This document shows positions 1 through 32,211 of a stretch of 32,211 bases of DNA, in pieces. How positions within the stretch are numbered: position 1 is the stretch's first letter; every line of letters begins with the position of its first letter. A model generated the notes under the pieces. That model saw only the letters and a list, made by a program, of their open reading frames with translations, had not been told where the DNA came from and searched no databases. The DNA lies in NCBI GenBank assembly GCA_022592445.1, contig JABYQR010000456.1:1-32211 (forward strand). The letters are read 5' to 3'. Position numbers and translations under genes: made by a program. The stretch is from Cytidiella melzeri. Lineage: Eukaryota > Basidiomycota > Agaricomycetes > Polyporales > Irpicaceae.

Positions 1-191
1 CTCACTGCCCACCAGTTGATGAGCTCTGATCCCACTGATCAGCCTCAACCTCGTCGTTCTACGCGCGAACGACACCAAACCAATTTCTTCGAGGCACTAT
101 CCCTCGTACCACTCGCAGGAGATGTACCCTGGTCTTCACTCCTACTCCAACTCCTCCTCCTGCTCCTACTCCTCCTACTCAACAACTCACA

Positions 192-3100
192 ATGTCTTCC
201 GCTTCTCGCGCTGGTACTCCAGGTCCTGCACCTTCTGCTGGACCTTCTGACAATGTCCCTACTACCTCAGCTGTTGCCGACCATCCCACTGCCCACAACA
301 CGGCATCACGACGAGTCTCAGCACCCCCTTCTGATTGCCGTCGCACTCCATTCAACACTCTCCGCAACGACTTCGCTCGCTGTCACACCACTAAGCCATC
401 GTCGGACGATAGCGACAATCCTATGGACGACAACGAGGCGCACGAAAGGCGAAGGGGCAAACTGCCCAGAGCCCGTCGTGCACCGTCCCCCTCACCATCT
501 GGCCCCACTGACTCTGCGCGAGCAGTGTTGTCCCTCCTTTCCGTGCCTCCAAAGCACAATGTGGAGTATACTATGTCACTTAGCGACGTCCACAAAGCCT
601 TCACAGACGTTGGCAAACTTACAGGTCCTGATACCTGGCCGATGTGGAAATTCCGCGTCGATACTGCAATGTCGACCATCGTCGACTTCTACAACTATAG
701 GGGTGGTCTGACCATTCCTCAAGAGGTCCAACGGGCCGTCTTCAATGTCCTGGCGGGACACATCACAGACTCTGTGATGGCAAACTATCTCAACGAGACC
801 GCGCCCCACAGACTCATGGAGAAACTCTCCGAATGGTTCAAGCCGACTTCCACTATGTCGGATGCGAATGAAAATTTCCAACTCTTCTCCCTCCGCCGCC
901 CTGTCCACGAAATGGACAAACTACTTGACGACGCGCACAATCTCTACTCGAAGATTCTGTCCAAGGGTATTGAATTCCCTCAACATATCTTCTACTCCGC
1001 CCTCGTTGGCATCATTCCCCCCGCCTATGCGCACACTCGCGCTAGCTACGAGGCTGGCGTGCGTTCTCGTACTCCTGCGGGCAAGAAGTACGACTACAAT
1101 CCTATCTTGCTGAGTGTCGAGGTCCGCCGTGACTTCCATAGTTGACGACTCGCTCATCCACTTGACCGCTCTCGGTCCAAGGGTTCGTCAACCCTCGTCC
1201 CTCGCGATAGGCCCGATGGTGGTTCATCCGCCGCGTCGCCAGCAGTTGACAAACGTGTCGAACGTCCGGCAAAAGCCACTTCCTCCGCTCGTGCGGCCGC
1301 TGCTCCTTACTCTAAGGAGAAGTCCGTTCGTGACACTTCAAAGATGAAGTGTTACAACTGCAACGAGACAGGCCACACGACGCCTACTTGCCCTTCACCC
1401 TGGACAGAGAAGTCCAAGGAGGCAATGAAGAGGAAGGGTATCACCCGGAAGTCCGTCGCTGCTGGTGTCAAGGGCAAAGCTGCCACTGCTGCCGCTGTTG
1501 TCACTACTCCCGCTGTCGCTGGTCCGTCGACCACTACTCCTCGTCGCAACCAGAGCACGTGGGTGTCGGCTCTCTCTGAGTCCGACGTCACTATGCACGT
1601 GAGTACTTCACTTACTACTACTACTTTTCCTACTCTACTTCCACTGTATGCGACTTCGTCAACAGATGAGTCGATACACATTCTTGATACTGGCGCAACT
1701 ATACACTGTACGCCGTATCGAGACTTACTTTTCAATGTCCACTCTGTACCAACTATCGTACTGACTGTTGACAACTCAGAACAACTAGTTTTGAAACTCG
1801 CCGGTGACATGGTACTCGAGGTGGAGCAGGAAAGTGGTAAGCTTACTGAACTCTTGCTAAAGAACGTCTACTTCAACTCAACACTACCTTTCACTTTAAT
1901 CAGCATTGGAAAATTGGACTCTGATTATCGGTTTATGTTCTATCATGGACTTTGTACTATATATGACTCAAACTCGACTTGTGTGGCTGTTGTTAGAAAA
2001 TCAAATGATTTATACACGCTATCATCAACTCGAGTGACTTCTTTAGCAAGCGTGCATAGAACTGGCATTACTTTACTTGAACTACATAAAAAACTCGGTC
2101 ATCTTAGTTACTTCATGATCAAGAAACTACTTCAAACTTCGTCAATCATTACTGATCATATAACTGACCATACTGAAACTCCGTGTGAGGATTGTTTACT
2201 TAACAATATCCATCGCAATACTGTACCTAAACTTTGTTCTTCATTGTTAGCTGAAGCTTTCGGAGATCACTTTCATATCGACATCTTTGGGCCTCTACCC
2301 ACAGCGTCGATTACTGGTAAACATTAATACTGGTTGACTATTGTCGACGATGCTACTAGATGGTTAATACTTGCACCACTAGTTACTAAAGATGACGCCT
2401 ATACTCAATGGGTCATTTTCTCTACTGAACTTTTGACGCAATATGGTATTCGTGTCAAGATACTTCAAGCCGATAACGACGGTGTCTTTACCAGTAAAGC
2501 TATGACTGCTTACTTGAAAACTCAAGGAACTATACTATGTCTTACTGTACACGATACTCCTCAGCAAAACGGTGTTGCTGAGCGTGTACATCAAACTATT
2601 ATGAACTTGATTCGAGTAAACCTGCATACTGCATCTTTACCAAATCGACTATGGTGGTATGCTGCGTTATACGCAATGTATGTGTACAATTGTTCTCCTC
2701 GTACTATACTTAACTACAAAACTCCTTACTTTAAGCGATATGGCACTGATGCTAACCTTGATGGACTTCAAGTCTTTGGTCAGCCGTGCATCGTATACGA
2801 CGAATATCGCACAAATAAACTAGCATCTAAGGGTAAAAGGGGAGTCTGGATAGGCTTTGCTGAACACTCTAAAGGTCACTACGTTTACTTTGGACAACGT
2901 GTCGGAGTTGAACGTAACTTGCAATCTGTTGACTCTACGATACAAATTGAAGGGGAGAAAGAACCAAATGTCGAAAAACTTACTACTGAAAAACAACTTG
3001 AACTTGAGGACAACCCTCACATAGAACCAATGGAAATCGACGAGCCTGACCCTACTGGTCCAAGGCGTTCCAACAGAACTCCTCAACTATCGCGTAAAGC

Positions 3101-5154
3101 TCGTGGTCTAAACTACGACGAAGTAGACACTAACATTGCTTTCTACTTAACTGAGTTTAACGCTTACTATGCTGAGGACGTCGGTGATCCTGTCACTTTC
3201 AAAGATGTACTTAATCACCCTCTCAAAGACGATTGGTTTAAGTCTATGAAACTTGATGTTGATACACTAGAACAACTCAGCACTTGGGAATACTGTATCC
3301 TGCCGCCAAATGCCAACATTACTGGTTCTCGCTTTGTCTACAAGACCAAGTACGAACATGGCAAAGTTACTAAACTCAAGTCAAGACTTGTTGCGCAAGG
3401 ATACTCTCAGCACGATGGTATTGATTACTATGCAAACGACTTGTTCGCTCCAGTCGCGCACATGAGTTCTATGCGACTCATACTTACACTTGCGGCTTCA
3501 CTACACTTCGAGATTAACCAACTCGATGTTAAGTCTGCTTACTTATACGGTAAAATTAACGATGATGAAGATCTTTATCTTCGTCCGCCGCCTGGCGACT
3601 TACTGCCCAACTTGCCTAAGGGCTGGGTACTTAAACTACGCAAAACTATCTATGGCCTTAAACAAGCCGGACGTCGCTGGTACAAGGTACTATGCGATAT
3701 ACTTTTCCAACTTGGACTTAAGCATTCAGACTACGATAACGCTGTCTTCTACCTTTACAGGGGAGACAAACTAATACTTATACTCGCTGTTCATGTCGAC
3801 GATATTACTCTCTGTACTATTACTTCTGTTGTCGCTGAACAAATCGAGATAGCACTTAGACAACATGTCGAAGTAACAAACGGTGGTACTATCCACTGGA
3901 TGCTTGGCATGGAGATTGATTACGACAAAGCTTCTGGTGTTATCAAGCTTCGTCAACGCGATTATATTCAAACTACTGTACCGGCATGACCTAACGTTCG
4001 CGGCTTGTGACCGTGACCCTCAGATGTTCGAAGATTCGGATGTTTGAGAAGTGTTGTGACCCTGTGACCAATGTTCGAACATATCAATAGGCGCCTGTGG
4101 CCACTCGATGAAGGCGCGCGTCGGTCAAGGCGTGTGTCGCTAGCGTCGCTACTTGACAACAGCAGGCACCAGTCATATAAAATCATATCCTTGCGCACAC
4201 AGAGCGCCCCCCTCCAAAAAATTGCGCTAATTACGTAAGCACCCGCGGTCACACAATCAGCAGGATGTTCGCGACGGTCTGCGACCTGTGACCAACGTTC
4301 AAAATGGCGATGTTCGGAGGCCTTGTGACCGTGACGCGAACATTAGGTCATGCCGGTACAGTATACTTAAACGAAACAACTTTGACCATGATCATACACG
4401 CCGTACGCCTATGATACACGAGCACAACTTAGCCCCCTGTGACTCGAAAGAACCTCGTCAGGACGCTGACGCTATTTAACAATACATGTCTTTAGTCAGT
4501 GGTTTACGATACGTCGCTGACTGTACTCGACCAGACGTTGCATACTGCACTGGTCAACTTGCACGATACTTAGCTGACCCTTCTAAGGAACACTTCGCTG
4601 CAGCTAAACAGTGTTACCTATACTTGAAGGGAACGTGCGATTACTGGCTTGTCCTAGGAAACCAAGCAACTACTACTAATACTTCACTTGTCGGATACGC
4701 TGATTCTGACGGTATGACTACATACGGCAATAAACCAATAATGGGCTACACCTTCACATACAATGACTTGCTTATCTCTTGGTCAAGTAAGCGCGGTTCA
4801 CTCGTAACACTTTTGGTCACCGAAGCCGAATTATATGCCTTAGCGCATGCGTCAACTGAAGCTATATATCTAAAAGCACTCATTGACGAACTACTTAACT
4901 TTACTATGGATCCTGTCAAAATGTATACTGACAGTGCATCAACTATTGCCATTGTTAGCTCACCTGACAAGCAACATTTGCAACGAACTAAGCACTTCGA
5001 AATTCGTAAGAATTTCATCAGCGATCGTGTACTCAAGAAGTATATAACTATTCATCACATATCTTCTAACGATCAACGTGCTGATACACTTACTAAAGCA
5101 CTACCTCTCGAAAAACTCAAGCACTTCAATGAACTACTTCATATTTGTGCTTGA
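192..5154 (+). pseudogene. copia gag-pol polyprotein, interrupted
   Basis: One frame runs from ATG 192 to TGA 5152-5154 once the MITE at 3976-4361 and one TA are disregarded. Seen in order: a gag domain with the pattern TGPDTWPMWKFRV; a CCHC knuckle, CYNCNETGHTTPTC (from 1350); a protease motif, DTGAT (about 1687); an integrase HHCC finger, then a D,D,E core (D near 2280, D in ADNDG near 2470, E in VAERVHQ near 2580) and a KGKRGVWIGF motif; RT with DVKSAYLYG and HVDD in place of the common YVDD; and RNase H with YADSDG, TEAELYAL, YTDSAS and a final ADTLTKAL. Defects are TGA 1143-1145, TAA 2325-2327, TAA 4477-4479 and the MITE. The stops look like CGA or CAA codons changed by C to T. Domain calls are firm; loss of function is inferred from the stops. 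Confidence 0.92.
3976..4361. mobile_element. 386-bp MITE with TA target duplication, inside copia pol
   Basis: The ends are inverted repeats of 27 bp with one mismatch, starting CTGTACCGGCATGACCTAA. Both sides are flanked by TA (3974-3975 and 4362-4363). Removing the element with one TA rejoins the copia frame exactly, so the boundaries are well supported. It has no coding capacity. The inside holds several copies of GTGACC and ATGTTCG, including a CTTGTGACCGTGAC direct repeat near both ends, which could be subterminal transposase sites. A TA duplication fits the Tc1/mariner/pogo group; that assignment is inference. Confidence 0.88.
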
Positions 5155-5944: not shown

Positions 5945-6093
5945 TTTGGATAGACTCTTCTGGGTCTACCCCACGCACCAAGGAGATCAACTCGATTGGC
6001 AACAACTGCGGTCTTGCTGCAATCCCTTATCATCCTCGCTAGCCTTACCCTGGATGGGAAGCAGCAGCTATACACATCAGACATCAGAAACAT
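5945..6093 (+). other. leader between 5' LTR and gag of element G
   Basis: 150 bp between the end of the LTR and the first gag ATG. A primer-binding site would be expected here. TGGATAGACTC at 5947 is in the right place and starts TGG, but I cannot match it to a tRNA by eye. Confidence 0.4.
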
Positions 6094-7086
6094 ATGACAG
6101 TAGGAGCTGAAATGTTCCTCCCCTCCTACAAAAAGCCACACTTTTTCTACAAGAAGAAACGAGATGTCTATCTTGACCACAACAACGAGTGGGAACATTG
6201 CACAGCTGATATTTGTCCCAATTGTGAACTAGCAAACCAAACAGTAAGACCGCCACACCCAGACTTTGAAGTTGTGGACATTGCCCAAGTTGAGCGACAC
6301 TTGCGAGAAGCCAGAAGATGCAACAAGAGACAAGCAGAAGTACCATCTGTTAGCAACACACCACCACTATTGTTAGAAGAACTTACAGTAGCACCAAAGC
6401 CAACAATGAGTACCCCTGAAGAAGCAACACAAACCAAAGGTACTGGGAAAACAGCAGGTACCCAAGCACCAAGGACTGAAAGAGAACAAAGGCCATTCAC
6501 ACCATTCACTACCCCTGATGACAACAACTCTTCAGTCCCAGACCCACATCAACCCCTCTTTCAACCCTATGATGAGAAAGGTCATGAGAAGAGGAGACAA
6601 TTAGACCCTTTCGACCCCAAGTACCCCTTTGACAGATACTCCGACGCCCCAACCAATGACCGAGCACCACCTGAAAGCGAGTGGGAGAAGCTCAAACTCC
6701 GTGATCCCCAAGACTTTGACGGCAGGGCTGAAAAGTTTGACAAATAGTGGACCAACATGTTGATGTACATCAGGATGCAGCCCAACCGATTTGCTCTAGC
6801 CATACACAAGATTGTTTGCGTACTCAGCTACATAAACAGAGGGACGGCTGGACCATGGGCTATGCTGAAGAAGAAACAATACCTGATGGAAGAATTCCCA
6901 CACTGGAGAGAATTTTGCAATGAAGTGTTGATTTTCTTCCAAGACAAAGGACTGAGAACGAGCATTATCCAAGCTTGAAAGGGCAAATCAGGGTTTGAGA
7001 ACAATCCAAGAATACAACAATGATTTTTCCGTATTGCTGGGCCAGTACAGCGAGAACCGAGATGAAACAGCAGTGATGGCTTGGTA
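6094..7086 (+). pseudogene. Ty3-type gag of element G, 5' part
   Basis: The ATG at 6094 opens a frame of 217 codons to TAG 6745-6747. The frame continues straight on with the conserved capsid-like part (DPQDFDGRAEKFDK, then WTNMLMYIRMQPNRFAL and GTAGPWAMLKKKQYL). By family comparison the TAG stands where a Trp would be (KWWTNM in relatives). A second defect near 6955 shifts the frame; the following codons still read as gag (LERANQGLRTIQEYNNDF, then a YSENRDETAVMAWY stretch) up to the insertion point. The coding part resumes at 13184. No zinc knuckle is visible in what remains. Confidence 0.8.
7078..7086 (+). repeat. 9-bp target site duplication, left copy
   Basis: GGCTTGGTA lies directly left of the transposon end and again directly right of it at 13175-13183. 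Joining the flanks through one copy restores the gag reading MAWYKRGLKW, so the duplication and both ends are well supported. Confidence 0.93.
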
Positions 7087-7337
7087 CAGACTCCTACCCA
7101 GTCGCCGTCGGTCGGGAGAGCAGAGATATGCTGGGTCTCGAGGGATGTTTGGTTGTGTTTAGTGTGATACTGTATATAGAAATTGATCAATATTCCCAAC
7201 CTTATTTCTGCTTCCCTCCCTCCGACGACTGGCACTTAACAAGTGTAAACAATGATTGGCGCCCCGGCCGGCGCACGCGGACTTTCAAGTTAACTCGAAA
7301 AATAACTCGCATTTCGGATTATCACAATAATTGTGAC
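7087..7337 (+). repeat. left TIR of the RecQ/DUF6589 transposon
   Basis: Aligned by eye to the reverse complement of 12920-13174. Apart from scattered substitutions there are two indels: about 13-14 bp after GATCAAT (extra in the right copy) and about 9 bp after GGATTAT (extra in the left copy). A TATATA box lies at 7173-7178, about 190 bp upstream of the helicase ATG, so the TIR probably also acts as promoter. Confidence 0.92.
7173..7178 (+). promoter_or_regulatory. TATA-like box in left TIR
   Basis: TGTATATAGAAA lies about 190 bp upstream of the helicase start, and its mirror copy at 13083-13088 is similarly placed for the DUF6589 gene. Being inside the TIR, the same promoter would drive both genes inward. 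Position and sequence only; no transcript data. Confidence 0.4.
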
Positions 7338-7369
7338 GTAGACCGATTCACTAATATCCATCCACAACA

Positions 7370-10282
7370 ATGGAACATCGGTCCGAATCCTCTGGCTTTA
7401 CTCTACCTACGACTAGTAATACATTGCAGCAAATACCGACTATCGAAGAAATTCGTTCAGCATGCCAGGCCGTTTTTGGACTGAGGGCTTGCCGGCTGCA
7501 GTGTCTGTTCGCACAGGGTTTGCTTGGCCGGAAGGATGTACTCTTCGAGGTTGGCACCGGGGTCGGAAAGACTCTGGCGTTTTGGCTGCCTCTGCTATTT
7601 CGCCCACATGGTGTTCAGATAGTCGTGACTGCTCTGAATGTTCTCGGCGAGCAGAATGTTACCCAACTGGCTAAGGCTGGAATCAAAGCTGTCACGGTCA
7701 ACAGTGAATCCGCAACAGCTGCTAATTTCCAGGTGAGTCATTCAACGTCTCATATTACTCTGGCTTGTATCTGATAGATATCACGAGGCTATTGAAGATG
7801 GGATATATCGGGTGGTGATAGTCAGCCCCGAGCAGCTGATGAAGCGTGGCGGAGGTTTTGAGAGGCTATTGAAGAAGCCGGAGTTCGTCGGACGCATCAT
7901 TGGCGTCGTTTTTGATGAGGCACATTGCATTAGCACATGGGGTGCTTTTCGACCGGAATACAAAGCTCTTGAGCAGCTACGGCATGTGGTACTGAAAGAT
8001 ATACCTATCGCTGCTGCGTCCGCCACGCTACCTCACGCCGTGAAGGAGGATGTCATTAAAATATTGCATTTCCGTTCTGACAGATTGGTCCGAATATCTC
8101 GTCCCACAGACCGGCCGAACGTGCACTTGGCTGTGCGAAAGATTCAACACCCACTCTCCAGCTACCTCGATCTGGCATTTGTCCTCCCCTCGGATCCACA
8201 CAATCCCCCCTCTAAATTCATCATTTTTTTCGATAGTGTGGCAGAGGCAGTTGGTGCGGGAAAAATGCTACGGAGCCGCCTTCCAGCAGAACATGTTAAC
8301 AAGGTTTTTTGGTTTCACTCGGAGATGTCAGAGACATTCAAGAGGGATGCGGTCGAGAGGTTGAAGAGGGGAGAGTTGTGGGGCATATGCGCGACAGACG
8401 CGTTTGGCATGGTTAGTTCCCAATTATGTATGCATCTTTGTATTCTCAAGCTCATTCTATTCTAGGGGGTGGATATACCGGATATTTGTCTCGTAGTACA
8501 ATGGAGAGCTAAATGCAGCATGTGCGCGCTGTGGCAACGATTTGGGCGCGGGGCACGAGGTTCGGGTACAGAGGCAGTCGCAGTGTTCTACGTGGAGGCA
8601 AAACACTTTGACGAGGAGAGACGGAAGGCAGAGGCAAGAAGGCAAGCAAGACGGGCGAAGAACAAAAAGTGCGAGAAGGTGAAAGTGCTTACACCAAATC
8701 CAGCGGTCAATAACATGTCACCACAGCCTCCCTTTCCTGTAGCGGCAGCTCCTGCTCTTCGAGGTGACACTGAAGACAACCAGGCGATGGAGGATGATCA
8801 GCCGGAGGAAGTAAGTGACAACGAGGACGACGGCCCAAGCGTGACAGTAACTGTCCACGCCGAGACGTCGAACATCGCCGTTGATGAGGATCTCCGCGCT
8901 CGCTACAGCCAGGTCAAGCTAAGCACGCCAGGTCACAGTGGTAGGAAGAGGCCTGGTACTCACCTGGACCTCGAGAACGCCATGGACGACCTGATCAACG
9001 CCGACACGCGCAAGGACGTGAATTGCCGAAGAAAACCTATAACAATATATTTTAGCGGTGGTAAAGGTGGTAAGTGATTCTTACCTGATGGTGTGTTATC
9101 CACAAGCTGAGCAGACGTCAGACTCAGACCATCTGCTCTGCGACACGACGAGGGAACACGGTTGTTCGCGCTGTGCTATCAAGACGCCAAGACTGTGCTG
9201 CGATTTGCACGGCGCCAAAGCGCTGATCGACTCTCTGCATCCTCCCACCACCGTCGAGCGATTGGCTGGTGACTCGAAACGGTCTCGACTCAAGACATAC
9301 ACGACTGCGCCGGCCGATATGGAGTTGAAGGAGTCGCTACACCAGTGGAGAACCGCCAAGACTATACAGAAGTACGGGCGGGGCGGTCTGGCTGACTTTG
9401 GCCCTGGGGTTGTCATCCCCGACGCTATGCTCGCGCGAATCGTCGACTGCGCTCACCACGGCAAGATCGAGAGTACGGAAGACCTCGTGCGTGAGACGAA
9501 GTGGGCAGGAGTGGAGGTCTACGGTGACGAGGTTTTGCAGTTAATCCGGCAAGTACATCCGCCTGCTCGACCCCCTGCTTTCACCACAGTCGAACTCCGA
9601 GATTCTCGCACCTCCGACTCGACGCCTGAGGTCACGGCGTTGGCTCCAAAGGCTCAACGCAAGTGTGGTGCATGTAGGCAGCCCGGACATACCCGTAAGT
9701 CGCTATCGCTATAGATTTCGAACGCTAACTACTACTAATAGCTTGCCGCAGAACGAAGCAAAAAATGTCCCATGTGGACTACAACAACGCAGTCCAAAGC
9801 CGCAAAATCGAAAGAAAACATACCTCCCTCCCTCCCGCCATCCCATATCAATATCCCTCTTCGCTCGCCCGCCGAACTTGTCGTTTCAAGTAGCTCTACC
9901 GTGACCAATGTTGCTCGTGACGACGCTGCGTCTGCTTCTGCTCACACCGCCAACAACCCCCTCGACTCTCTACTGGCCTCCTTAACGGCGACTCCTCCTC
10001 AACGCGTGCTGACAGCTGATGGATCACTGGCCTATCGGCAACCCTCCCCCACCGCCTCGACAGCTTCCAACTCCATGAATACAGGTATGTTTTATCTGTC
10101 AACATCTAGTTATTGTGTGTCGCTCAACTACAATAGACTCGCTCACGTCCTCTATATCATCACACCCCTATACTCCAATCTCGACGGTCACATCTGCTAG
10201 TGTGACCTCAGCATCTTCTTCGGCGGTGGTCTCATCGGCATCCATGGCTTCGGGTCCTTCAGAAGCGAGAAGCGCGAACTGA
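7370..10282 (+). CDS. RecQ-like superfamily 2 DNA helicase, transposon-borne
   Basis: Model: 7370-7732, 7788-8411, 8466-9069, 9107-9694, 9752-10084, 10137-10282; five GT-AG introns (37-57 bp), all phases agree, 885 aa, no internal stop. RecQ-family enzymes unwind DNA 3'-5' using ATP. Visible motifs: a Q-like region, Walker A GTGVGKT (62-68), DEAH (164-167) within VFDEAHCISTWG, SAT (199-201), FGMGVDIPD (motif V, around residue 330), and QRFGRGARG (353-361, motif VI). After the helicase core come a Lys/Arg-rich stretch, an acidic stretch, a Cys-rich segment (CSRCAIKTPRLCCDLH) and a knuckle-like CGACRQPGHTQRSKKC formed across the exon 4/5 junction; the tail is Ser/Thr/Pro-rich. I see no HRDC domain. 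The final exon overlaps the DUF6589 gene antisense. The start is the first in-frame ATG after the TIR. Probably assists transposition, but this is inferred from context. Confidence 0.9.
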
Positions 10283-12847
10283 CCTTCATCCATCAAATTC
10301 GGGATGGAGTGCTTGCTCTCGCGACCGGGAACAATCTCGTGAGGCCGTGCCTTCTGTAGGTTCTGCATCACGGCCTCAAATGTTTGGGTCATGTCGGGCT
10401 CCGCATGTTTGGTTGTGAGATGACCAAGTGCGAGATTTCTTTCGAAGGTTAGATGGAGGTCACGGTAGATCTGTATCAACACACTGTCGTCGATGATGCG
10501 CTGTTCCGTGTAATTTACTCCCGTACCGCCATACTTTGTCTATGAAATAGTTTATTGCACTTTTCTTTGCGCTCAGGTCGCTAACTTACCTTTGTATACA
10601 GGTTGTTTAATTCAAGACACCAGTCCGGTGCCCTGAAACACCCTGGCTTTCCGGACGGATTGATTAGAATGCTGTAGCGGACAGCCCTTCTAGATTTACA
10701 ACACAGAGGAGTGTTAGTGTCATCTCCGTTAACATCTATTGTGCCATCTTTTGACTTACCTCAAACCCGGTGGATAAACGAAGTGGACATTTGATAGGTA
10801 TTTCATCATATGTTTCACGTATTTATGCTTCCCTGTGGCCTTGAAAATCCAGATCCATGGCATGAAGCAAGACTCCACACGGCCGACGTCTCCGTGGTTC
10901 ATTGCAAATGCCAGCTCTTCATAGAGACAGAAGTACTCGTTGAGGAGCAATCCGTTCTCGAATTGCTTATCGCGGACACTGGACGGCTTGCTTCGTAAGT
11001 CAAAAATTCGGCTCTTTTCTTTCCGAGAGGTGTAGTTCATTGCGAGATGGTTTGCTAATGCCTTCAGATAGTCTAGTGACGGTTTTGATGCCGCAAACAG
11101 CTTCAATGAGCTGTGGGTGGGCTCTCGCTTCTGTACCTCCACTCGCCAGCAGTCGAGCCGGCGACATATGCCAGCATGTTGTATTATCTGATGCATCCTC
11201 CGGAACCCTGGCTTCGACGCAACACTCCCGGTCTCTCGCGGACGCAAGATACTTACATCCTTCATCAGGCAAGTCTCGTCCTCCTGTACAGAGCGTGGCT
11301 GAATGAACACTTTCCACAGTGCATCAACACAAGCCATCTTGAGATGGAAAAGGCCAAGCACAAATACCGCAAACTGCAGCCGAAGCCATGGTGTTTCTTC
11401 AATTGCTCGCCTCTCGAGTGATGCGTCAATTTTTTCACCGGTCCCAAGATCGCCGTAGAAAAGAACGACATGATTGGTCACGTCAACAACTGCTTGGCTC
11501 CCACCAGAATCTGCATGCGCCACACGAGGATCTCCAACACCAACCTGGGCAAGGATATGAGTCATGGCACTGATATTCCCAGCAACTTGTGAGTTATTGT
11601 CTGTGGTCGTTCTCAATGGTATGATTGGCGTTTTTGTTAAAGGGATTTTCTCGATAGGCTCTGGCTCACCAATACTTGCGGCAAAACACCGGAACTCTTC
11701 GGGGCCATGGTGGCAAAGATCGTGCAGGAATTTCCAAGCGTTGAAGCGATCTCTAGCAGTCATGTTGTTTTCATCCAGCTCTCGTGTATGAGGATGAATG
11801 AGCATTAGGTCCTGAGAGGTTCGCCTTGGCGGAAGGAGATCTCGTAACACACGAGCATTGAGCTGTGATCGTTCCCATAGATATTGAGAACAGCGTAAAT
11901 CATTCGCGGTGATGCCGTGCTGCAGCGGAAAGACCATGGATGTTGTGAAGTGTTTCAATGTCTCGCCTGGCTTCTCCACGGTTGGCACTGATGACTTGAA
12001 CTCGATGTCTAGATTGTCGTACGCATATGCTGCTGAAAGTGTTTGCCCAACTTCTTTCGCATCGGAAGTGATATGTATACCAAGGGAGTGCAGCGAGCGG
12101 TGGATTGCTGTTTGTGAGATAGAGATACCCATGTGAGCCAGTGAGTCCACGAGCTTCTGCGGTGCGTGTATGGCATGCAGGAATATACCACACATGCTCT
12201 GCAGCCAGTTGGCCTTCTGGCTGCGCCCTTGCATGAGAATGCTACTAATCAAAACCTTTTTCTTTACTCATAGTCAGCTATTCCAATCCGCCTTCAAATA
12301 GTGGAGAACATACACTGATGATTGTAGCACGACGTCTCCTCCGCGCAGCTGCTGTCGGCCGCTTTCGCTTTCTCGTAAATGTGGCAGGCGCATCTCCAAG
12401 AGTGTTTGCCATCTCCTCTTCATCACTTTCATCTGACTCCAAATCCTCATCACCCTTTGTGCCTTTCTTGAGCCATGCATCCAACATCTCCCACAGGTTT
12501 GGTGCTGTCGAGCCCATCTCCTGCGCCATGTCTACGAGATCAAACTCCTGCAACTGATAAGGCTCCGCACGTCCTGCCCCAAAATGCCACCCTGCGCCCT
12601 CTGATGCCAGCTTGTCAATCTCCTCACAGATAATCCCCAATATCTTATCCCTGTTCCAGCTGTGCATGGCTGCGCAGGTCTCCTGATGCTGGGAGATGGC
12701 TGTGACAATGTCCTTCCATGCCACACAGATATCACGCACCAGGGGGTGGTATGAGGCCTCCTGTTGTAATGCATATAGGATCAATGAGGATATAGTGATC
12801 TGATGAGAGAGTAGTATGCCGTGGATTTCTTCGAAGATGGTATACAT
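10168..12847 (-). CDS. DUF6589-family protein, candidate transposase
   Basis: Model in minus-strand order: 12847-12314, 12255-10760, 10689-10590, 10539-10168; three introns (58, 70, 50 bp), phases agree, 833 aa, intact. I recognise the fungal DUF6589 family by stretches such as SILMQGRSQ, AYAYDNLDIEFK, FPLQHGIT, GLFHLKMACVDALW, HGDVGRVESC, YVKHMMKYLSNVHFVYPP, INPSGKPGCF and LGHLTTKHAEPDM. The N-terminal part has an acidic run followed by RKRKRPTAAARRRRR (about 162-176), a likely nuclear signal. Conserved acids that could form a DDE-like centre are GD (446-447), D in FHLKMACVD (about 489) and E in GRVES (about 639); this is a suggestion, since the family has no experimentally established activity that I know of. 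It is the only other gene of the transposon, so it is the best transposase candidate. Confidence 0.88.
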
Positions 12848-12919
12848 GGTGGTGGTTGCTCGACACAGATACTGTCGTCGCGATCGTATCTAACCATCTT
12901 TTCGTCCGGAATTTTACCG

Positions 12920-13174
12920 CGTCACAATAATCCGAAATGCGAGTTATTTTTCGAGTTAACTTGAAAGTCCGCGTGCGCCGGCCGGGGCGCCAATCATTGT
13001 TTACACTTGTTAAGTGCCAGTCGTCGGAGGGAGGGAAGCAGAAATAAGGTTGGGAATAGCACGTGTTGGATTGATCAATTTCTATATACAGTATTACACT
13101 AAACACAACCAAACACCCCTCGAGACCCAGCATATCTCTGCTCTCCCGACCGACGGCGACTGGGTAGGAGTCTG
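12920..13174 (-). repeat. right TIR of the RecQ/DUF6589 transposon
   Basis: Reverse complement of the left TIR with only a few substitutions and two short indels. It contains a TATATA box (13083-13088) reading toward the DUF6589 gene, whose ATG lies about 70 bp inside the TIR. Confidence 0.92.
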
Positions 13175-13183
13175 GGCTTGGTA
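13175..13183 (+). repeat. 9-bp target site duplication, right copy
   Basis: GGCTTGGTA, identical to 7078-7086; the gag of element G resumes immediately after it. Confidence 0.93.
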
Positions 13184-13463: not shown

Positions 13464-14249
13464 ACTGACATGGATAGTCCAACAGAGAGCGGATTTTTCA
13501 TCACAGTCACCAGTTTACAGCATCAGGCGCCTATTTAGAGCACTTATTTTCCAGCTAGGACTATTACCAGACCTAACCCTAACACGGGTCATGTGACATA
13601 CTGCCTTATTTATCAATAGTCCAGACCCAAGCCCTAGACTCAATCTGGAGCGGTTCCAGATCACCCTAGGCTATTGTTCTATTGTTCCCCTTCTATTGTC
13701 AGGGATTCCCCAGGGATTCCCCCAGTTCTTATTGTCCTATTGTCTTCCGTCTATTGTTTTCTGTCTATTGTTAGGGATTCCCCAGGGATCCCCCCAGTTT
13801 CTATTGTTCTATTGTCTATTGTTCTGGTTCTATTATTCTATGTACCCTGGGCCCTGATTGTTATCCTGGTCCCTTATGGTTCTATTGCTACTCCAGCCCC
13901 ACAGTTACTCCAGTCCCTAGTGTGGGAACTTGCACACAGACCACCCAGCAACAGTATATATAGTAGACCTTACCCTCCCTAGCTCTGCATCTTGACCTCT
14001 CTGTCATTTGCATTGCTAGGTGAGTTACTGCATGTAACTTAGTATTATCCCTATTAACTCTGTCATTTGCACTGCTAGTATCCGGCCTCTGTGCCTGCTT
14101 GCCTGCTTATCATTGACTTTGACCTTGTTGTTGTCATTGTCCCTTTCCACTTCCACTACCATCAATCCACCCTTGTTTAGGGTTTATCAGCATAGCAGCA
14201 GTTGCTCCGCGACATCCACCTCCTTCTTCAGAATAATCATCCCTTCTCC
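13464..14249 (+). other. non-coding, LTR- or promoter-like stretch inside element G
   Basis: No credible gene. It is rich in CTATTGT words and holds two copies of a GGGATTCCCCAGGGAT(T/C)CCCC block (about 13690-13730 and 13770-13800). Downstream are TATATATAG (13955-13962), then two TCTGTCATTTGCA(T/C)TGCTAG words (near 14000 and 14060). This resembles the promoter half of a fungal LTR or a 5' leader, perhaps a remnant of another element. It has no second copy in the window, so its nature is unproven. Confidence 0.45.
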
Positions 14250-30169: not shown

Positions 30170-31645
30170 TCAGTGTGATGTTCTTGAGATATCCAGACCA
30201 ATGTGTTTGCCTTCATCCCAGCTAAGATCGTATGTAGATGGATAGATCGTGCGAAGGAAAGCGGGGTCGGTCTGGGTATTGAATTCCCGAAAGTGCGAGC
30301 GGAGATCCGCGAAGAGTGAAGCTTTGATGACCCGGGGCGCTCCGGGGTTCGCTTTGTAGAAATCGTCAATCGCTTCTTGACTATTCTCGAGGTTTTCAAC
30401 CGGTTCCCAGCTATTGTGTCCGTCTGAATACCCTTCCCATTTGACTAGGAATTGTAGCTTCTTCCATCTTCCGTGTAGCCTGCTGTCTAGCACTTTCTCG
30501 ACGACGTACTGCTCTTCTCCTTCTATGACGATAGGATCAGGAGGTGGAGGTACGTCTTTGCCGTTGTCGTGCCAGGGACTTAGACGGTTGATATGGAAGA
30601 CGGGGTGGATTCGGAGATAGCTGGGTAGATCAAGTTTGTAATCGAGATCGCCAATGCGTTCGATGACCTTGTATGGGCCGAGCTGTCGAGGACCGAGTTT
30701 AGGGGTAGCCTGATGAATCTGGACGTTCTTAGCGTTTAGCCAGACCATGTCCCCTACTTGGAAGACGCGTGGAGAACGCTTCTCAGACTCATAAAGTTGC
30801 TTCATCTTTTCTTTGCTTAGACAAAGAGCTGCTTCGGTCTCTTTGCGTACTCGAGCCATGTTGTCAAGGCGCTCATCGAGTGACGGGATATTGCTTCGCT
30901 TGCCGACTGGTACGGTGAAGTCGGGGCGATATCCGTAGATGACCTCAAACGGTGTTTGTGAATTACCCGCATGTACTCGCGCGTTGAGTGCAAACTCAGC
31001 CGCCGGCAGATGATCGACCCAGTCGTCTTGTCGTTGCTGACAGAATAGACGCAGATACTGTTCGATATCCTGGTTTTTGCGTTCGACTTTGCCATTTCCT
31101 TGCGGATGATAGGCGGTCGTAAAACCAGTCTCTATGCCTAGGCGGTGATAGAGCGCACGCATGAAGCGTGCTGCAAACTGGGGTCCTCGGTCAGAGAACA
31201 CCTTCTTGGGAATTCCGTGAAGTCGGAATACTTCTTTGTAGTGTAGATCGGCAATCCCCTCAGCGATAACCTTAGTAGTAGTGGGGATGATGTGGGTTTG
31301 ATCGGAGTAATGGTCGACGTAGACCGCGATCGAATCAAATCCCTTAGAAGGCGGTAGCTGAGTGATGAGATCTACTCCGACGTGTTCCCAAGGTCCGGCC
31401 GGAGTTTCCTGAGGCTGTAGTACTGCTTTAGGGTGCGGAGCTGACTTATAGCGTTGACAGCGATCACAACCTAGTACGTAAGTCTCGACGAAGGCATTCA
31501 TCTTTGGCCACCAATAGTGTCGTGAGACTAGCTCTATGGTGCCGTGTTTGCCTGGATGACCAGCCGCGGGTGTGTCATGGCAAGATTTGACAATTTCATG
31601 ACGGAGCTCTTTGTCGTTAGGGATATAGAGTTTTCCCTTGTATAG
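30170..31645 (-). pseudogene. chromovirus integrase with GPY/F and chromodomain
   Basis: An open stretch of pol in one frame from about 31645 (YKGKLYIPND) to stop 30170. An HHCC finger (HEIVKSCHDTPAAGHPGKH, then CDRCQ) is followed by the D,D-35-E core: D in VDLITQLPPS, D in SDRGPQF, E in GKVERKNQDIEQYLR. Then come GPRQLGPYKVIERIG (GPY/F) and LRIHPVFHINRLSPW. The chromodomain is YVVEKVLDSRLHGRWKKLQF, then VKWEGYSDGHNSWEPVENL, whose aromatic residues would bind methylated histone and direct insertion to heterochromatin. This part is undamaged, but upstream it is separated from RNase H by two frameshifts near 31640-31660, so the polyprotein is broken. Confidence 0.9.
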
Positions 31646-32211
31646 ATGAGTCCGTCACTCTCTTCCATTCGAATAATCCGCCGACAAGTTTGCGAGGACC
31701 CTTCTTTTGAAGGGTAGCCAGAGCTTGTGCGACTTCTGCTTCTTGCTCCGTGCATTCTCGGATCTTTGATTCGAGCGGAGAAGCAGTGGCAAGTGCACTG
31801 GTGGCGAGGATGCAGAAGTGTTCCGGTTTCAGTACCACCTGATCCTTGTTGTCTTCTTCGTCCGTGACAGCGTGAGAGTGAAGACGAGAGAGAGGATCAG
31901 CGTGTATCATGGTACTACCGGGCTTGTGTACCAACACGAAGTCGAAGTCAGCCAAAAGTAATGACCAACGTGCTTGACGTCGAGTGAGGTGTTGCGCAGT
32001 CTTCCAGTACTGCAGGTTTGCGTGATCTGTCCAGATCTCAAACGGTTCCTTGAGCCCCTCAAGGTGTGGCGCCAATCTTTGAGAGCTTCGGTGATGGCTA
32101 ACATTTCCCGATCAAAGATTTCGTAGTTACGTTCTGCTTCAGTCATAGATGCGGACCGGTAGGCGATAGGGTGGTAGAATCCATCTTCCTTCAATTTCTG
32201 GGAGATGATTC
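31646..32211 (-). pseudogene. chromovirus RNase H and connection region, frameshifted
   Basis: FYHPIAYRSASMTEAERNYE and IFDREMLAITEALKDWRH, then, after a one-base shift near 32075, FEIWTDHANLQYW and LTRRQARWSLLLADFDFV, are RNase H hallmarks (E in the EREM-like helix, D in WTDH). A linker follows, with a Lys/Glu-rich part and a frame change near 31660. The region runs off the window at 32211. One-base indels rather than stop codons are the main damage here. Confidence 0.82.

Follow-up and report, generated by a model that had tools for sequence, protein, structure and literature searches.

How does a fungal element that encodes a RecQ-type helicase and a DUF6589 protein between terminal inverted repeats (TIRs) move, and what does each protein contribute? 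The 6.1-kb element in question occupies positions 7087-13174 (6,088 bp) of a 32,211-nucleotide stretch of Cytidiella melzeri DNA (assembly GCA_022592445.1, contig JABYQR010000456.1), the whole of which is referred to here as the window. We propose, with considerable confidence, that it is a DNA transposon that likely belongs to the AcademH kind and in which the DUF6589 protein is the predicted DDE transposase and the helicase assists; that it is a transposon with its own transposase is the part that we hold most firmly. This proposal is based on the long TIRs, the 9-bp target-site duplications, an identical copy elsewhere in the genome, related empty sites, a convergent arrangement of the two genes that recurs, and low ratios of nonsynonymous to synonymous divergence (dN/dS). 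The parts of the element are the following.

7078-7086, no strand: left copy of the target-site duplication, GGCTTGGTA, 9 bp (sequence; the joined flanks resemble related empty sites)
7087-7322, plus strand: left TIR, 236 bp, beginning CAGACTCCTACCCAG (repeat search, TIR alignment)
7370-10282, plus strand: gene 1, RecQ-type helicase, 885 residues (splicing, Pfam, RecQ structures by sequence, dN/dS)
7370-7732, 7788-8411, 8466-9069, 9107-9694, 9752-10084 and 10137-10282 (including the stop), plus strand: exons of gene 1 (splicing)
10168-12847, minus strand: gene 2, DUF6589 protein, predicted DDE transposase, 833 residues (835 with the acceptor used by relatives)
12847-12314, 12255 (or 12261)-10760, 10689-10590 and 10539-10168, minus strand: exons of gene 2 (splicing)
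12927-13174, minus strand: right TIR, 248 bp (repeat search, TIR alignment)
13175-13183, no strand: right copy of the target-site duplication, GGCTTGGTA, 9 bp (sequence)

A preliminary description of this DNA had proposed an apparently intact transposon with TIRs of about 250 bp, an exact target duplication and two genes open over all their exons, and each of these points was borne out. The repeat search returned TIR arms of 105 nt (98%) and 132 nt (100%), and when left and right TIR were aligned they differed by two substitutions and one 12-bp indel, the right being the longer; the first nine bases, CAGACTCCT, are invariant in all 27 family ends compared. The duplication is exactly 9 bp. Both genes, with splice sites that we picked from the sequence, are read without an internal stop (885 and 833 residues); they are convergent, and their tails overlap by 115 bp (10168-10282). 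As gene models of same-species relatives use an acceptor 6 bases earlier at the first gene 2 junction, adding two residues (KK), the gene 2 product is probably 835 residues long. The insertion site lies in a repeated reading frame, which is interrupted by the element and appears gag-like by eye; a Pfam scan of the two flanking frames gave no match. When the flanks were joined with a single copy of the duplication, at least 40 places in the genome matched across the junction, the best at 96%, and these represent related empty sites.

A search of the 49.7-Mb genome with the TIR returned at least 43 matches, a lower bound, as 40 of 55 candidates were scored. A second copy, on contig C405, is identical at 6088 of 6088 positions, has unrelated flanks and is bordered by its own duplication, AGCAGCGAG. 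An exact 9-bp duplication was found in nine of the ten copies with both ends read (that of the window plus nine from fetched regions), C177 having none. Dropped before this count were C45, in which one end is not terminal, C491 and C586, the ends of which belong to different elements, single-ended matches, and C299/C704, apparently one insertion split at contig ends, where a 9-bp match is also present. The data support an intact-looking, recently mobile transposon. Both genes are held over most of their length by seven of the ten copies (helicase, 747-885 of 885 residues; DUF6589, 822-833 of 833), while the other three (C237, C20 and C468) retain mere scraps of both genes and yet have 9-bp duplications. 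Mobile copies devoid of DUF6589 had been named as evidence against the proposal; such copies do exist, but they resemble derivatives that arose by internal deletion and were moved in trans. Projected codons, left unmended, contain one helicase and two DUF6589 stops in C712, and one helicase stop in C177. On C236 a full copy has, immediately beyond its left end, part of another TIR of this family (L013:201-567). C491/C586 was considered as a composite transposon and dropped, as the two share an extensive inverted duplication (arms of 1.6 kb, 94%), the edges of which are marked by outward copies of the window's TIR (L021, L022).

The next question is whether the helicase is a regular partner of DUF6589. 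Across the genome the DUF6589 family (PF20231) gave 120 matches, which collapse to 82 loci, and a helicase-core search 125 matches at 72 loci; these counts include copies of the same family and are thus not independent. On a first pass a helicase lay within 8 kb of the DUF6589 match in convergent orientation at 49 of the 82 loci, in divergent and tandem orientation at one each, and at no such distance at 31, against a chance expectation, in any orientation, of about 2.5%. Conversely, 22 of the 72 helicase loci, which include short copies and contig ends, have no DUF6589 match within 8 kb. A second helicase query revealed convergent C-terminal matches at three of the 31 unpaired loci (C39, C63 and C704). 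Seven of the 30 fetched loci are unpaired, and five of these, C39 among them, contain minus-strand frames like those beside other DUF6589 loci. We infer that the frames at the other four encode a helicase tail; direct comparison of these four loci's frames with the two helicase queries gave no match. Three loci (C111, C130 and C353) have similar DUF6589 matches in open frames of 782 residues (one TAG inside the matched stretch) and are helicase-free within 8 kb; they are possibly a lineage with another partner.

Pairing unlinked elsewhere would have spoken against the proposal, and it in fact recurs, both at other loci and in other species. Elements on C151 and C22, a second lineage, encode a DUF6589 protein together with a helicase only 29-30% identical to that of the window in the matched stretch. 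The helicase has 35 fungal relatives, beyond which the matches fall abruptly to bacterial RecQ (E from 7.6e-82 to 2.2e-31). For at least 11 of the 35 a DUF6589 protein of the same species, on a contig of equal length that we take to be the same one, is among the matches listed (120 rows per list), and in four of these 11 (Phlebia, Coprinellus, Rhodofomes and Bondarzewia) the two gene numbers differ by one or two.

The gene 1 protein matches DEAD (5.8e-19) and Helicase_C (9.2e-12) in Pfam, and contains a Walker A lysine (K67), a DEAH box (164-167), motif VI (353-361) and a CCHC knuckle near residue 717. By sequence against the Protein Data Bank (PDB) its core is that of RecQ (E. coli RecQ, 3.3e-29; WRN, 2.4e-28), RNA helicases reaching only 5.9e-7 or weaker. 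It shares this core with the cellular enzymes E. coli RecQ, WRN and BLM but differs from them in its C-terminal CCHC knuckle, in a low-confidence stretch (417-473) in the model of a helicase relative, and in that no RQC or HRDC match (Pfam, E <= 0.01) was found in the window helicase or in any of seven relatives scanned. A cysteine cluster at 516-561 resembles the RecQ zinc site by eye; eIF4A rows extend equally far on the relative's model.

Estimates of dN/dS, made between the window genes and each copy and given without a significance test, address whether the two proteins have been maintained. Against C290, in which 36.6% of non-coding positions differ, the ratio is 0.151 for the helicase (0.068 in the core, 0.229 in the rest) and 0.097 for DUF6589; against C568 the values are 0.217 and 0.086, and against the partly broken C712 they are 0.326 and 0.365. 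C236 and C177 yield either saturated synonymous sites or an undefined ratio. As dN/dS is well below 1 for both, we read the two proteins as having been kept functional through rounds of transposition. It could be argued that the helicase is nevertheless a captured passenger, or an anti-silencing gene, outside the transposition reaction, as constraint against C290 is weaker in the C-terminal part than in the core and 31 of 82 DUF6589 loci appeared helicase-free nearby on the first pass. The low dN/dS of the core argues against this explanation, as does the recurrence of the pairing both in a second, divergent lineage within the genome and outside the species; we regard it as unlikely.

The gene 2 protein matches a single Pfam family at E <= 0.01, DUF6589 (PF20231, E 1.9e-93), and a sequence search of the PDB found no convincing relative (best E 0.47). 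The preliminary description had suggested that this protein is a transposase, to be judged by whether its fold is nuclease-like, and as a prediction this stands. The modelled structure has an RNase H-like core resembling solved DDE transposases, and an all-helical insertion separates the second aspartate from the glutamate, as in the hAT, P and RAG1 enzymes. The likely catalytic triad in the model is D258, D447 and E703 (D200, D389 and E645 in the numbering of relative P0002), encoded as follows.

12016-12018, minus strand: codon of D258, predicted first catalytic aspartate, in the first core strand (65 of 67 relatives; model)
11449-11451, minus strand: codon of D447, predicted second catalytic aspartate, after the fourth core strand, in GDLGTGE (66 of 66 relatives; model)
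10611-10613, minus strand: codon of E703, predicted catalytic glutamate, in a helix past the all-helical stretch (56 of 58 relatives; end-offset, four DDE enzymes)

The position of the glutamate is approximate, as it was derived from end-offsets relative to the catalytic residues of Hermes, P, RAG1 and Tn5. Of the acids singled out earlier (447, 489 and 639) the first fits this triad, whereas 489 (62 of 67) and 639 (67 of 67) are conserved yet map to other parts of the model.

A MULE-like (Mutator) transposon, with DUF6589 as a divergent MULE transposase, would typically also have long TIRs and 9-bp duplications. In addition to the sole Pfam match of the window protein, however, nine relatives contain no transposase family besides DUF6589, MULE included, at E <= 1, and a helicase is what DUF6589 is repeatedly paired with, in line with descriptions of AcademH, so that a MULE origin is quite improbable. 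Alternatively, DUF6589 could be a structural or DNA-binding partner of a protein that cuts in trans, and it is true that its catalytic role is a prediction from a model and that Foldseek returned nothing at E <= 0.001. Nevertheless, the top 27 fold-match rows are all DDE enzymes, the predicted acids are kept to the extent given above, and no other nuclease-capable gene was found in the element by open reading frames, splicing or Pfam, which makes this explanation very improbable. The DUF6589 protein is hence predicted to be the DDE transposase of the element.

In a profile search for distant relatives of this protein, the best 120 of 298 all carry PF20231, and the organisms named among them are basidiomycetes; these 120 do not reach the animal members. 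In viral contigs 26 pattern matches included no true relative, and a viral fold library gave nothing at E <= 0.001, the best being a pandoravirus hAT-domain protein (0.078). Two annotated DUF6589 proteins have extra Pfam domains, PF12937 (F-box) in P0013 and PF14743 with PF01068 (DNA ligase) in P0029; they are perhaps gene-model fusions, perhaps real.

How does the element relate to known transposons? The founding paper of AcademH is reportedly that of Kojima (2020, Mob DNA 11:15). AcademH is described as an Academ lineage bearing a helicase, with target duplications of 9 or 10 bp (PMC10045372), present at low copy in Basidiomycota, Ascomycota and Mucoromycota (PMC10799480). A helicase in a TIR transposon, which had been thought unusual, is already in print, for both AcademH and KolobokH. 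Matched by description, that is by duplication length, helicase and fungal range, the element likely belongs to the AcademH kind, which also occurs in basidiomycetes. It differs in that this genome contains 82 DUF6589 loci, and in that the name DUF6589 is absent from the AcademH descriptions in the literature searched, which nowhere mentions it; PF20231 turned up in a single listing, that of a photonics paper, which is apparently a coincidence. A hAT transposon such as Hermes would usually make 8-bp duplications (PMC12730594) rather than 9-bp ones, and the element has a helicase partner and no hAT match in Pfam. Kolobok target duplications are TTAA, whereas those found here are ten different 9-mers, none of them TTAA. 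That the element is KolobokH, a fungi-only DNA transposon lineage that likewise encodes a RecQ helicase (PMC9587614), is hardly credible: the duplication length speaks against it, and the KolobokH helicase is described downstream of the transposase domain, whereas that of the window is a separate convergent gene.

In the transposition that we envisage, the DUF6589 transposase would bind the TIRs and cut at the CAGACTCC element ends; these would be joined to the target strands at a 9-bp stagger, host fill-in producing the duplication. The RecQ-type core, with its CCHC knuckle, may assist the transposase by opening intermediates of the transposon ends or of strand transfer, a role that we put forward tentatively, at somewhat under even chances; replication restart, or a kept accessory function, would be the alternative.

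The second lineage bears on how general this scheme might be. Its ends read TAGTCTC, compared with CAGACTC in the window's family, and among C151, C22 and two short TIR copies (C154 and C169) the 9-bp duplication is exact in three of four, C169 matching at eight of nine bases. Because of these duplications the 9-bp stagger is likely a trait of the DUF6589-RecQ group rather than of a single family. As single strands the second-lineage ends form long subterminal hairpins closed by ACCAG...CTGGT, the stems of which vary and are complementary by eye.

L029:46-146, L030:46-155, L033:25-144, L063:25-134 (minus strand), L059:90-199, L061:83-192 and L064:105-214: second-lineage hairpin ends

Relative to shuffles, z scores range from -2.8 to -5.5 across all six ends of one comparison; in another the C151 end has -5.12 and the C154 end, over a slightly shorter stretch, just -2.00. 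TIRs of the window lineage are not above shuffles (z +0.77, +0.26, -0.20, +0.53, -0.86 and +0.49), and the hairpin idea is therefore limited to the sister lineage. One might speculate that the whole of DUF6589 (PF20231) is a DDE transposase family acting only when paired with RecQ, which in the sister lineage would unwind the variable, complementary hairpin ends during helicase-dependent cut-and-paste, but this we consider rather doubtful.

Elsewhere in the window, a Ty1/copia-type long terminal repeat retrotransposon (RVT_2; integrase core in 2328-3986) lies just upstream of the element at 39-5154, a Ty3/gypsy-type pol fragment that includes an integrase and a chromodomain is present on the minus strand at 30170-32111, and beyond the right flank there is a short direct repeat (13678-13799), in which two 50-bp copies begin 72 bp from each other.

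In mushroom-forming fungi numerous proteins are labelled DUF6589 and have no assigned role, which the transposase reading would supply. If DUF6589 is indeed a transposase, annotators could tell transposon genes from host genes in mushroom genomes. The identical copies indicate a recent, apparently intact element, suited to asking why a transposon keeps a RecQ helicase.
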